A stretch of 52,119 nt of DNA. Source: Tannerella sp. Lineage in GTDB: Bacteria > Bacteroidota > Bacteroidia > Bacteroidales > Tannerellaceae. This document shows, one piece after another, positions 17,080 to 36,722 of the stretch (its first letter is position 1; the number at the start of each line of letters is the position of its first letter). Position numbers and translations under genes: made by a program. The notes beneath the pieces are model-generated. The model was given only the letters and a program-made list of their open reading frames with translations, was not told the DNA's origin and did not search any database. The stretch lies in the NCBI GenBank assembly GCA_031265585.1, contig JAISCL010000378.1, positions 1 through 52,119 of the forward strand. Reading direction: 5' to 3'.

Positions 17080-17260
17080 CCGGTTTTTTTCGCCAGGCTC
17101 CCGGTTTTTTCGCCGGAATACCGGTTTTCTGGCGAGAATACCGGGAATCTGGCGAAAATACCGGTATTCTGGCGAAAATACCGGGAATCTGACGAAAATA
17201 CCGGGAATCTGGCGAGAATACCGGGAATCTGGCGGGAATACCGGCGCTCCGGCCGGGGCG
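17080..17260. repeat. 20-bp tandem array between gcvPA and gcvPB
   Basis: Eight head-to-tail units in exact 20-base register from 17101 to 17260, plus a degenerate one before (17080-17100, 21 bases). A typical unit is CCGGGAATCTGGCGAAAATA. Units 17121-17240 are close copies that vary mainly at bases 5-7 (TTT, GAA, TAT, GAA, GAA, GAA) and 15-16 (AG, AA, GG); the outer units are diverged. At 17156-17167 the junction forms the 12-base palindrome AATACCGGTATT. 20 is not a multiple of 3, so any reading frame cycles through all three phases. It occupies most of the gcvPB-gcvPA gap. Confidence 0.9.
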
Positions 17261-20074: not shown

Positions 20075-21397
20075 TTAAAAATCTATGACTACAGCGCCGC
20101 CGGCATTCGCGCTGCCGGCCGGTGTTGCCGTTTTCGCGGTTTCTTCGGGCGGTTTCCGTCTGGCGGCTATGTCTTTGGGGTTCCGGTTACAGGTCGGGTT
20201 ACTCTCAAGGTATGAGATGAAGGCGTCGTCGTCCATTTCGTCCATAGTCAGGACTACGATGCTGGAGGGCGAAACTCTTTTTATTTTCATATTCGCGCCC
20301 AGCGTTTCGACGCCATAGGCTTTCTTGACACGATCTTCGTCCTTTGCCTGCCGGCCGATCTCTTCCTGCGCTTCCAGTATGGCTTTCTTATCTTTCAGTT
20401 TCTTTATTTCGGGAACGGCGTCGAGGCCGAATCCGGTCGCGATGATCGTAAATTTCACGGCCTGTTCCGGCAGCAGCGATTCATCTATTCCATGTCCCCA
20501 AATCATTTCGATATGCCTGTCGAAACGTCCCATAAAATTGTCGGCGGATGTATTCAGTTCATCAATCTTGACGTGAGCGTCACTCCGGTATGAGACATAG
20601 AAGAGCATCCGTTTCGCATTGTAAATATCGTTATAGCTGAGTAAAGGCGAATCAAGCGCTTCCTGGATGGCATTGTCGAGACGGTTTTCGCCGTTGCCGA
20701 ACCCGTAACTCACCAGTGCAATGCCACTGTCTTTCATCGTTGTATTCACGTCGTTAAAGTCGCGGTTTATAACGCCTTTTACGGTGATGATCTCGGCAAT
20801 GCTCTTAACGGCCATCGCCAGCACTTCGTCCGGCTTTTTGAAAGCTTCGGTCACATCGCAATCGGGATAGAAATATTTCAGGCGCTCGTTATTAATGACA
20901 ATCAAGGCGTCTACATTACGGCTCATTTCTTCGACGGCGTCCAGCGCCTGGATAATGCGCGGAACCTGTTCGAAAAGGAAAGGAATCGTAACGACGCCTA
21001 CCGTAAGGATTTCTTTATCTTTCGCCATCTTGGCCAGCAGAGGGCCTGCGCCGGAGCCGGTTCCGCCGCCCATGCCTGCGGCAATAAAAGCCATTTTTGT
21101 GCCGTCTTCGAACAGTTTGCTCACTTCGGCGGAGCTTTTCTCAAACTCTTTCCTTGCATTTTCAGGCTTTCCGCCGGCGCCTAATCCTTCTCCTAATGTA
21201 ACTTTAACGGGCACATTCACCCCTTCAAAAGATTGCCTGTCCGTGTTGCAAACGGCAAAATTAACGCCAAGTATACCACATTCATACATGTAGTTTACAG
21301 CATTCACGCCGCCGCCTCCGATTCCGATTACTTTTATAATTTTAGTCGAATCCGAATCTATCGGAAAACTATATTTTATTCCTACATTTGTATCCAT
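20075..21397 (-). CDS. ftsZ: Cell division protein FtsZ
   Basis: 440-residue tubulin-like GTPase forming the Z ring. The T4 signature GMGGGTGSGAGP (about 108-119), the N-terminal IGIGGGGVNAVNYM, and the T7 segment GVINRDFNDVNTTM with its catalytic Asp are all intact. The core ends near residue 375. The C-terminal part, ESNPTCNRNPKD then a short Ala/Thr-rich linker ending GGAVVIDF, lacks the familiar DIPAFLR-type peptide of other FtsZ proteins. Its start context (26 bases around and before the ATG) is duplicated 222 bases upstream, at the start of the mini-ftsA ORF. Confidence 0.96.
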   Translation of the reverse strand: MDTNVGIKYSFPIDSDSTKIIKVIGIGGGGVNAVNYMYECGILGVNFAVCNTDRQSFEGVNVPVKVTLGEGLGAGGKPENARKEFEKSSAEVSKLFEDGTKMAFIAAGMGGGTGSGAGPLLAKMAKDKEILTVGVVTIPFLFEQVPRIIQALDAVEEMSRNVDALIVINNERLKYFYPDCDVTEAFKKPDEVLAMAVKSIAEIITVKGVINRDFNDVNTTMKDSGIALVSYGFGNGENRLDNAIQEALDSPLLSYNDIYNAKRMLFYVSYRSDAHVKIDELNTSADNFMGRFDRHIEMIWGHGIDESLLPEQAVKFTIIATGFGLDAVPEIKKLKDKKAILEAQEEIGRQAKDEDRVKKAYGVETLGANMKIKRVSPSSIVVLTMDEMDDDAFISYLESNPTCNRNPKDIAARRKPPEETAKTATPAGSANAGGAVVIDF

Positions 21398-21918
21398 ATC
21401 ATTTGTTTTTTTCTAATAATCTTCTCCAAAAAAATCCTTTCTAAAATAGTCATCATAAATACCGTCCCACGGTTTCCTCCGCCTGACGCCGTTGTCGGGC
21501 TTCTTTCTTCCTTTATTCTTTTCCTTTATATCAGCGTTCAGACTGATCGCCGGCATATAGGGAGGATTGTCAAGCCGGTCGTCCGATTCGCGAACCGGGC
21601 CTTCACCATTCGTATCCATATCATTTGTTTTTTTCTATTATTCTTCATCAAGACTCTTTTTAATATAGTCACCAAAAATATCGCGCCACGGTTTTCCCTT
21701 CGTCTTCCTGGGGGTTTTTTTCACTTTTTCCTTTTTCTTTTGATCCTCTTCCTTTACATCAGCGTTGACGGCTGCCGTTTCCTTCTGTTCCGGTTCCGGT
21801 TCCGGTTCTGCAAAGGGAGGCGAAACGCAGGATTCCGTTCCTTTGAGCATCAGACTGATCGCCGGCATATAGAGAGGATTGCCAAGCCGGTCGTCCGATC
21901 CGTGAACCGGGCCTTCAC
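21390..21918 (-). repeat. Imperfect tandem duplication of the ftsA 3' end and ftsZ start context
   Basis: Two blocks occur twice in the same order. Block 1 is 68 bases, at 21539-21606 and 21851-21918, with four differences; it codes for the last strand/helix of the FtsA core. Block 2 is an identical 26-base segment at 21390-21415 and 21612-21637, covering the first codons of ftsZ (or of the mini-ORF) and the preceding spacer. Sequence between the blocks is diverged and about 90 bases shorter in the ftsZ-proximal copy. The simplest history is one duplication followed by deletion and drift. Confidence 0.9.
21413..21619 (-). CDS. 68-residue partial duplicate of the FtsA C-terminus (mini-FtsA)
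   Basis: Starts MDTNGEGPVRESDDRLDNPP. Residues 1-4 equal the start of FtsZ (MDTN); from Glu6 on it matches FtsA from residue 347: EGPVRESDDRLDNPPYMPAI against EGPVHGSDDRLGNPLYMPAI (18 of 22 identical through the following SL). A 28-residue Pro/Glu-rich part of the FtsA linker is missing. It then continues NADIKEKN and ends RRKPWDGIYDDYF, like the FtsA tip GKPWRDIFGDYI, the presumed amphipathic membrane-binding helix. It lies 18 bases after ftsA and 15 before ftsZ, in frame and with a good ATG. It lacks the ATPase core, so it could at most bind membrane or a partner; it may equally be decaying. Confidence 0.55.
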   Translation of the reverse strand: MDTNGEGPVRESDDRLDNPPYMPAISLNADIKEKNKGRKKPDNGVRRRKPWDGIYDDYFRKDFFGEDY

Positions 21919-22954
21919 AGATAGCCGAATGACGGACTTTCACTTTGCATTTGTCCCGGATCAGTTCGGGCAGGCCTTTAAGTTCCACCGCACATCCTGC
22001 GAGAACGATTCCCGAACCTAACGATTTGAGTTCCGTCACCTCGCTGATGCGGGCATAGACGTTTTCAACGATTTCTTTCGCGCGTCCTTCTATGACGGCG
22101 TTCAAATCGTTTATTTCTATTTTCCGGTCCATATTTACCGAAATGGACTCGCCTTCGTCTTCCTTGCGCACAATGGCGCTTCCATGTTCTTTTTTCAGGT
22201 TTTCAGCTTCGGCCTCCGTCAACTGTAAGGACACAATATCGCGGGTGATCAGGTTGCTTCCCAGCGGGATGACCGACATGTGCAGCAGATCGCTGTCCTT
22301 ATAAACGGAAACGGAGGTCACACCGGCGCCAAAATCCACCAGCGCGCATCCCAGTTCCTTTTCTTCCCTGCTCAGCATGGCGTCTGCCAGCGCAAGGGGA
22401 GTGACCATGATTCCTGCAATTTCTTTGTCCATGCGATCCCGGATACTGTTGTGGATGTCCCGGCGGATGGAACTGCGCCCGATCACCAGCTTGTAGCGCG
22501 CTTCAAACCGTTTACACGGCACGCCGACCGGCTTCGTTTCCCGGCGTCCGTCCAGGTAATAGACCGCCGGCGCGGTATCCAGGGCGTCCAGCAGGTCGGG
22601 TTTATTTTTTTCGCACCGTTCCTTCAATTCTTTTATGTCGTCTTTCGTGACGACGGCTCCTTCCGCGATCTCCTTGCTCTCGACATGATCGATCGTCCGG
22701 AGAGACTGTCCGCCGACTCCGATATACACCTTGTCTATATACCCTCCTTTCAGGTGGCTTTCCAGTTTGTTTACAAGACGACCGGCACGGTCTGCCGTAT
22801 CATCCAGGTTGTGGATGTTGCCCCTGCGCATGCATGATAACGGGGTCTCCATTTCACAGGCAACGATGGTAAACGTTCCGTCTGCATTTTTCTCTCCGAC
22901 AATCCCTGTCATGTGGGATGTCCCCAAATCAATCGCTACAATAAAATCCGTCAT
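21638..22954 (-). CDS. ftsA: Cell division protein FtsA
   Basis: 438-residue actin-like protein tethering FtsZ to the membrane. The phosphate-1 motif is AIDLGTSHMTGIVG (residues 7-20), with phosphate-2 in ALVDFGAGVTSVSVYKDSDL and the adenosine motif in LGSGIVLAGCAVELKGL. The core ends near residue 370, followed by a 70-residue extension rich in Glu, Pro and Lys and a C-terminal KPWRDIFGDYIKKSL, which fits an amphipathic membrane-targeting helix. Overlaps ftsQ by four bases. The C-terminal coding part is duplicated just downstream. Confidence 0.94.
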   Translation of the reverse strand: MTDFIVAIDLGTSHMTGIVGEKNADGTFTIVACEMETPLSCMRRGNIHNLDDTADRAGRLVNKLESHLKGGYIDKVYIGVGGQSLRTIDHVESKEIAEGAVVTKDDIKELKERCEKNKPDLLDALDTAPAVYYLDGRRETKPVGVPCKRFEARYKLVIGRSSIRRDIHNSIRDRMDKEIAGIMVTPLALADAMLSREEKELGCALVDFGAGVTSVSVYKDSDLLHMSVIPLGSNLITRDIVSLQLTEAEAENLKKEHGSAIVRKEDEGESISVNMDRKIEINDLNAVIEGRAKEIVENVYARISEVTELKSLGSGIVLAGCAVELKGLPELIRDKCKVKVRHSAICEGPVHGSDDRLGNPLYMPAISLMLKGTESCVSPPFAEPEPEPEQKETAAVNADVKEEDQKKKEKVKKTPRKTKGKPWRDIFGDYIKKSLDEE

Positions 22955-26210: not shown

Positions 26211-26238
26211 TTAAGATAACATATATAATAATCATTTG

Positions 26239-26566
26239 CCAAAACAAAAATTGGGGAAACGTGAATCCGACTGTTTTGGCCAAAACAAAATTTGGGGAAA
26301 CGTGAATCCGACTGTTTTGGCCAAAACAAAAATTGGGAAAGCATGAATCCGACTGTTTTGGCCAAAACAAAAATTGGGGAAGCATGAATCCGGCTGTTTT
26401 GGCCAAAACAAAATTTGGGGAAGCATGAATCCGACTGTTTTGGCCAAAACAAAATTTGGGAAAGCATGAATCCGACTGTTTTGGCCAAAACAAAAATTGG
26501 GAAAGCATGAATCCGGTTGTTTTGGCCAAAACAAAATTTGGGGAAACATGAATCCGACCTGTTCTG
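26239..26566. repeat. 41-bp palindromic tandem array (8 units) between ftsW and murG
   Basis: Eight units in exact 41-base register start at 26239, 26280, 26321, 26362, 26403, 26444, 26485 and 26526. Each begins CCAAAACA and ends TGTTTTGG (the last end is degenerate), so every junction makes the perfect 16-base palindrome TGTTTTGGCCAAAACA. The 25-base interior is nearly constant, varying between AAAATT and AAATTT, three or four G, AC/GC before RTGAATCC, and GAC/GGC/GGT at the end. No CRISPR logic: interiors are not diverse. The period is about four helical turns. All three minus-strand frames stay open across it. The remainder of the 442-base gap (26567-26652) shows nothing I recognise. Confidence 0.95.
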
Positions 26567-36428: not shown

Positions 36429-36468
36429 AAACGTCCCGGTCTCTCTCCGGAAAAAGATCGGGATGTTT
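36429..36468 (+). terminator. Intrinsic terminator of the HU-like gene
   Basis: AAACGTCCCGGTC (36429-36441) pairs with GATCGGGATGTTT (36456-36468) over 13 positions including two G-U, with a 14-base loop and a terminal T-run. It starts 17 bases after the HU-like stop codon. Confidence 0.75.
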
Positions 36469-36473
36469 TCAAA

Positions 36474-36560
36474 AAACGATAAGGATCTTTCCCGAAAACG
36501 ATAACTATCGTTTCCCCAAACGATAACTATCGTTTTACTAAACGATAACTATCGTTTTTA
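36474..36560. repeat. 22-bp palindromic tandem array downstream of the HU-like gene
   Basis: Three perfect copies of AAACGATAACTATCGTTT at 36496-36513, 36518-36535 and 36540-36557, each an 8+2+8 inverted repeat, spaced exactly 22 bases. A fourth, degenerate copy sits in the same register at 36474. Linkers are four bases (CCCC, TACT). The array follows the terminator directly and precedes the decayed surface-protein gene. The remaining 160 bases up to 36722 hold only short, out-of-frame coding-like sequence. Confidence 0.92.
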
Positions 36561-36722
36561 CTAAACATCTAAGTGCCTTATTCAGTATGCTTTACAAACG
36601 CATCAAAAAAGTCGAATATTCAACAACCGCGAAGGCTTTCTCGGCCTCTTCAACCGTGCCGAAATACAAATTTACACCTATACAGCCGGCTATTCCCCCG
36701 AAGCAGTCCCCACAGTCCTTAA

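Follow-up and report, generated by a model that had tools for sequence, protein, structure and literature searches.

Partial tandem gene duplications are known to yield chimeric small ORFs, and a self-anchored FtsZ exists as the engineered FtsZ-mts. For the membrane-targeting tip of E. coli FtsA, the work cited is reportedly that of Pichoff and Lutkenhaus from 2005. The tip of E. coli FtsA is described as an amphipathic membrane-binding helix (PMC7613929). A natural self-anchored FtsZ is likewise described for Odinarchaeota, where OdinFtsZ1 is anchored via an N-terminal helix (PMC12583498). Among the open-licence papers listed, as judged by titles and the opening parts of abstracts, neither an ORF nor a duplication at the ftsA–ftsZ junction is described.

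The junction considered here lies in the window, i.e., the whole stretch of 52,119 nucleotides of Tannerella sp. DNA that was analyzed. The genes follow each other on the minus strand in the order murC, ftsQ, ftsA, and ftsZ, the names of the first two being presumed from their translations. Between ftsA and ftsZ lies a 68-codon ORF—its presence, reported in the first-pass annotation, is confirmed (Table 1)—with a gap of 18 nt to ftsA and of 15 nt to ftsZ. According to the ORF coordinates, ftsA, the 68-codon ORF, and ftsZ share a common reading frame. The ORF consists of two parts: the first 13 bases, ATGGATACGAATG, are the ftsZ start with one mismatch, and codon 6 onward corresponds to FtsA from residue 347 onward, less 84 nt of the core end and the linker. 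The earlier description of the N-terminal MDTN as the start context of ftsZ is hence correct. The copy of the ftsZ start and the copy of the ftsA tail meet at about 21606/21607, and the first copy of the spacer and start places an ftsZ-like initiation region ahead of the small ORF. A scan for regulatory sites yielded two promoter-like sites (1.3 in shuffles) and four terminator-like sites (0.9 in shuffles), with only one of the latter on the coding strand. Elsewhere, the window carries an array (26238–26563) in which a 41-bp unit bounded by inverted CCAAAAC/GTTTTGG recurs about eight times, as well as two short tandem arrays with units of 20 bp (17080–17244) and 22 bp (36461–36566).

Table 1. 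Features of the ftsA–ftsZ junction, with positions in the window
Feature	Position	Strand	Remarks and basis
ftsA	21638..22954	-	438 aa; source of the tail duplicated from residue 347 onward; ORF call, Pfam FtsA (E 5.4e-21), repeats, tblastn
Original 69-nt core-end block inside ftsA, EGPVHGSDDRLGNPLYMPAISL	21850..21918	-	Repeat search
Copy of the core-end block inside the small ORF	21538..21606	-	4 mismatches, each amino-acid changing; repeat search, alignment
68-codon ORF; ftsA tail behind an ftsZ-like start (MDTN), 84-nt deletion; FtsA-type tip KPWDGIYDDYFRKDFFGEDY	21413..21619	-	ORF call, alignment
First copy of the ftsA–ftsZ spacer plus ftsZ start bases	21607..21637	-	1 mismatch in 28 nt; repeat alignment
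Second spacer copy plus true ftsZ start	21385..21412	-	Sequence, repeat alignment
ftsZ	20075..21397	-	440 aa; ORF call, Pfam Tubulin and FtsZ_C

The small ORF is a product of a tandem duplication of the ftsA tail. The two 69-nt core-end blocks are identical in 65 of 69 nt (94%) at a spacing of 312 nt, which bears out both the duplication and the four changes in the block that had been noted earlier. A second repeat (21385–21475 and 21607–21694) has an identity of 80% and a spacing of 222 nt and holds the tip, the spacer, and ATGGATACRAATG. The alignment of the copies features three gaps—of 84, 9, and 3 nt, every one a multiple of three—and the two spacings differ by 90 nt because this is the net of these gaps, in agreement with the previously estimated loss of about 90 bases from the linker. 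A shortened linker, a retained FtsA-type tip, and an open frame, also part of that description, are found by ORF call and alignment. In a tblastn search with FtsA against the region, the second copy was matched with an E of about 1e-8, so the similarity is not due to chance; together with the repeat search, this rules out a chance resemblance of the ORF to ftsA. That another ftsA lies elsewhere in this genome was considered and rejected as well: in the assembly, one match to the window DNA, one FtsA, and one FtsZ were found.

The assembly, a Tannerella-type one, is MAG-like and fragmented (4.88 Mb in 383 contigs, the window being contig 62), and short repeats can mislead assemblers, which would speak for an artefact of assembly. 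Such an artefact is highly improbable: the novel joint, ATGGATACGAATG followed directly by GTGAAGG, occurs in neither parent sequence; no exact match between the copies exceeds 26 nt, so that a read would be expected to span the joint; and substitutions and indels separate the copies, as would not be the case for a duplicated piece of a contig.

Among the described systems, the 68-codon ORF belongs with the partial tandem duplications, with which it shares a direct repeat, intact parent genes, a novel chimeric joint in frame, and a copy that has changed; it is unusual only in lying between ftsA and ftsZ and in borrowing its start from ftsZ. It ends, as FtsA does, in a homologue of the FtsA membrane-targeting tip. 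Unlike in FtsA, this tip stands without the FtsA body—the actin-like core (Pfam FtsA/SHS2_FTSA) is absent—and its predicted amphipathicity is ordinary; membrane binding is putative in this genus. As in a self-anchored FtsZ, a start derived from FtsZ and a membrane-type tip are joined in one frame. In contrast to such proteins, the GTPase domain is absent and the four residues MDTN are all that is shared with FtsZ. A search of the 68-aa protein against Pfam finds no family at E up to 1, whereas FtsA and FtsZ are found in the neighbors.

A further FtsZ with an FtsA-like end was observed in a relative of the same genus. In G023, an extra FtsZ of 385 aa is encoded between ftsA and ftsZ (L047, 5298–6455), with 218 of 320 aligned residues identical to the neighboring FtsZ. 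The C-terminal NPTYNR stretch is missing from this protein, whose end, FWQLVKDLFKED / SKFWQLVKDLFKED, resembles an FtsA tip; a stretch of 24 nt near the ends of the extra ftsZ and of ftsA matches at 20 positions. Judged by its sequence, it is a candidate for a natural self-anchored FtsZ, which is more striking than the 68-codon ORF and may deserve more attention. Two or more FtsZ matches occur in three of the 36 same-genus genomes with an FtsZ match: three in G023, two in G029, and two in G064. The tandem or additional copies lie at L051 5379–6419 and 6416–7732 (G029), at L199 455–1729 and 1734 onward (G064), and on contig 51 of G023. In other families, FtsZ proteins ending like an FtsA tip were seen at L089 (G058) and L083 (G055), with the ends FVGSLFDDKDDQLV and KKAGDLFNNE.

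The ftsA–ftsZ regions of 129 loci were compared with the window. These comprise 113 loci of the same family—an FtsA match is present in 115 further members, of which G069 and G114 were left out and all 36 matching same-genus genomes included—and 16 loci of other families, from 16 of 22 genomes with an FtsA match. The named FtsA relatives (19 loci) are mostly MAGs of Tannerella sp., the best having an identity of 77% to the FtsA of the window. Tannerella forsythia FtsA shows an identity of 49–53%, and the other named relatives are a Porphyromonadaceae MAG (68%), a Tannerellaceae MAG (41%), and three Flavobacterium (30%). Isolate names of this type suggest that the window comes from a gut bacterium, presumably of a termite. 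The junction was readable in 124 of the 129 loci: in 118 by alignment of FtsA and FtsZ and in six, which the FtsA search had missed at that place, by a separate estimate. Of the five unreadable junctions, four lie at a contig end and one, L162 (G076), has no FtsZ match within 1857 nt 3' of ftsA.

Spacing between ftsA and ftsZ is usually close in the relatives. In the 118 aligned junctions, no more than 190 nt separate the ftsA stop from the first FtsZ codon in the alignment, and the gap in the remaining six is estimated at −10 to 44 nt; none of the 124 readable junctions has room for an ORF of 207 nt between the two genes. A second ftsA tail was found in none of the 118 gaps, the best self-tail score being 36 compared with 121 in the window. 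Among the same-genus relatives with an FtsA match, 34 of 36 have a readable junction, and none of these carries such an ORF. The search for the same ORF in related genomes, which the first-pass annotation had proposed as a check, thus gave 0 of 124; by the criterion set there, this goes against a selected division peptide. When the 68-aa protein was searched against 100 genomes, it matched the window genome and, weakly, four others (E 0.03 to 0.07). Given its absence from the junctions and the weakness of the other matches, the event is limited to the lineage of the window as sampled, with one genome per species.

The copy differs from its parent in a way that gives no sign of constraint on the protein. 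All four codon differences in the core end are nonsynonymous. Comparison with 13 relatives most readily assigns three of these to the copy (G to E, G to D, and L to P; the FtsA residue is retained in 10, 13, and 9 relatives, respectively) and the fourth to the FtsA of the window (R to H), since R occurs in the copy and in six of the 13. The nearest differing pairs of real FtsA have synonymous-to-nonsynonymous ratios of 4:1 (G027/G014) and 6:3 (G034/G009) in the core end. The ratio of 0:4 is weak by itself (Fisher p 0.56 for the core end) because all pairs of 14 FtsA, which are mostly far more diverged, sum to 570 synonymous and 871 nonsynonymous differences in this segment. For linker and tip, pN is 0.27 and pS 0.26, and overall pN is 0.25 and pS 0.15, with neither Fisher test significant. 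As far as this blunt comparison over few sites can tell, no purifying selection on the protein is visible between copy and parent; selection after the duplication may still have acted.

The divergence is distributed unequally over the duplicated unit: 4 of 68 nt differ in the core end, 1 of 28 in the spacer, 26 of 64 in the linker, and 14 of 59 in the tip. The ends of the unit differ in 5 of 96 nt and the middle in 40 of 123 (21385–21918; Fisher p 2e-7), and the tip alone is also set apart from the ends (p 0.0017). This contrast between ends and middle is not predicted by uniform neutral decay. Real FtsA pairs of similar core-end divergence retain similar tips, unlike the copies in the window: G027/G014 differ in 5 of 66 nt in the core end and 3 of 45 in the tip, and G034/G009 in 9 of 66 and 7 of 45. 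The likeliest accounts are that the tip, once freed in one or both copies, changed fast or that the copies stem from two diverged alleles. In the latter case, recombination between strains would have joined two alleles, or later overwritten the copy, with linker and tip already different and the ends the same. The unequal segments and the conserved tips of the real pairs speak for this history. A donor allele was not found, however, the closest tip (that of G033) belonging to a gene that shares no more than about 73% identity with the FtsA of the window, and rapid evolution of a tip that is freed or adapting could look alike. We regard the joining of two alleles as possible but doubtful; it is a question of history and fits any functional reading.

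The tip of the small ORF was compared with real FtsA tips at two levels, which disagree. Summed over 11 FtsA tips of near relatives, its similarity amounts to 340, compared with 287 for the best of 1000 shuffles; it is also nearer to the tip of G033 (score 62) than the tip of the window FtsA is (39). This near-relative comparison favors an FtsA-like tip in the copy. On a broad profile of 108 distinct FtsA tips—from the family, other families of the order, and one Flavobacterium—the small ORF reaches 1.3 bits, with 51 of 300 shuffles as good, and the FtsA of the window 8.5; the 108 tips themselves score 0.9 to 33.3 on their own profile, two real tips lying below 2. An amphipathic character of the tip did not stand out: the maximal hydrophobic moment is ordinary, with 1323 of 2000 shuffles at least as high, a measure that is uninformative for most real FtsA tips tested too.

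These comparisons bear on the possibility of a small selected division peptide, in which a free FtsA tip would bind the membrane or a partner and compete with or tune the anchoring of the Z-ring by FtsA. The near-relative scores, the open frame with its indels in multiples of three, and the duplicated ftsZ start region, which would drive expression, are in line with such a role. Together with the near-relative scores, the unequal divergence along the unit leaves some room for a function. The broad profile and the ordinary hydrophobic moment argue against it, as do the lack of a second case in the readable junctions and of visible purifying selection; for the last two reasons, a functional peptide was rejected as the main reading. 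The selection that the first-pass annotation had considered is thus unlikely. Quite unlikely, too, is a newborn division micro-gene, in which the FtsA tip under the ftsZ start would be kept while the core fragment drifts and the tip of the parent FtsA changes. If true, such a micro-gene would supply a free peptide that binds the membrane or a partner and is produced in concert with FtsZ.

The openness of the frame is moderately remarkable. When random substitutions are introduced into the present ORF, 70% of trials with 10 changes keep it open, as do 51% with 20 and 27% with 40, figures to be read with the case having been picked partly because the frame was open. An in-frame joint is a one-in-three chance, and the in-frame loss of 84 nt is another. 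The three multiple-of-three indels would be jointly unlikely if they were independent one-in-three events in the copy; the gaps of 9 and 3 nt may, however, lie in ftsA, where the frame is constrained. An open frame could also be kept as a translational spacer. In this case, the openness and not the sequence would matter: ribosomes would be delivered 15 nt before the ftsZ start, stops and frameshifts would be selected against, and the output of ftsZ may change. The common frame of the three ORFs with their gaps of 18 and 15 nt and the short distance usual in relatives are compatible with this idea. In addition, the sole mismatch between the two spacer-plus-start copies probably lies on the ftsZ side, because the base of the first copy is found in most near relatives. 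Translational coupling is, however, putative in this genus, and the initiation copies are short, with few changes to be expected anyway; a spacer role is rather unlikely.

Tandem duplication is an ordinary process in these genomes because near-tandem clusters are common both in the window genome and in a single-contig relative. In the window genome, 13 clusters of near-tandem direct repeats occur in 300,309 bases (the window and 20 further stretches). In the relative, G030, 50 clusters occur in 300,000 bases (L201–L215, 15 stretches); in 24 of these, the best spacing is 82 or 84 nt. The base rate is given as cluster counts only, since an ORF on the opposite strand also spans the 68-codon feature and thereby spoils counts of ORF containment. 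Many of the clusters resemble arrays or repeats within an ORF, and some are two-copy, e.g., L118 with two adjacent similar ORFs.

Taken together, the 68-codon ORF is the product of a partial tandem duplication, specific to this lineage as sampled, that was tolerated; the copy is probably translated and probably has no selected role. The duplication with its joints, the deletion, and the lack of such an ORF at the junctions compared are direct observations, and the route of recombination, the translation, the behavior of the peptide, and its lack of function follow by inference. Slippage or illegitimate recombination would have linked the ftsZ start, after ATG GAT ACG AAT G, to residue 347 of ftsA at a joint with little or no sequence in common. 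The segment copied in one piece runs from the core end of ftsA through linker, tip, and spacer to the start of ftsZ. The event was tolerated, as ftsA stayed whole and ftsZ retained its own start and the upstream gap of 15 nt. Afterwards, the copy lost 84 nt and gained amino-acid changes where related FtsA is largely fixed. Because it inherited a near-exact ftsZ start region, the small ORF is probably translated, and its product would be a short, drifting peptide that carries an FtsA-type tip and lacks the FtsA core. That this peptide has no selected role is most likely.

The locus illustrates well how, within an essential operon, a partial duplication can create a chimeric ORF that is in frame and comes with its own start region while the parents stay whole. 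If strain data showed that the frame is kept, it would represent the birth event of a small division protein.
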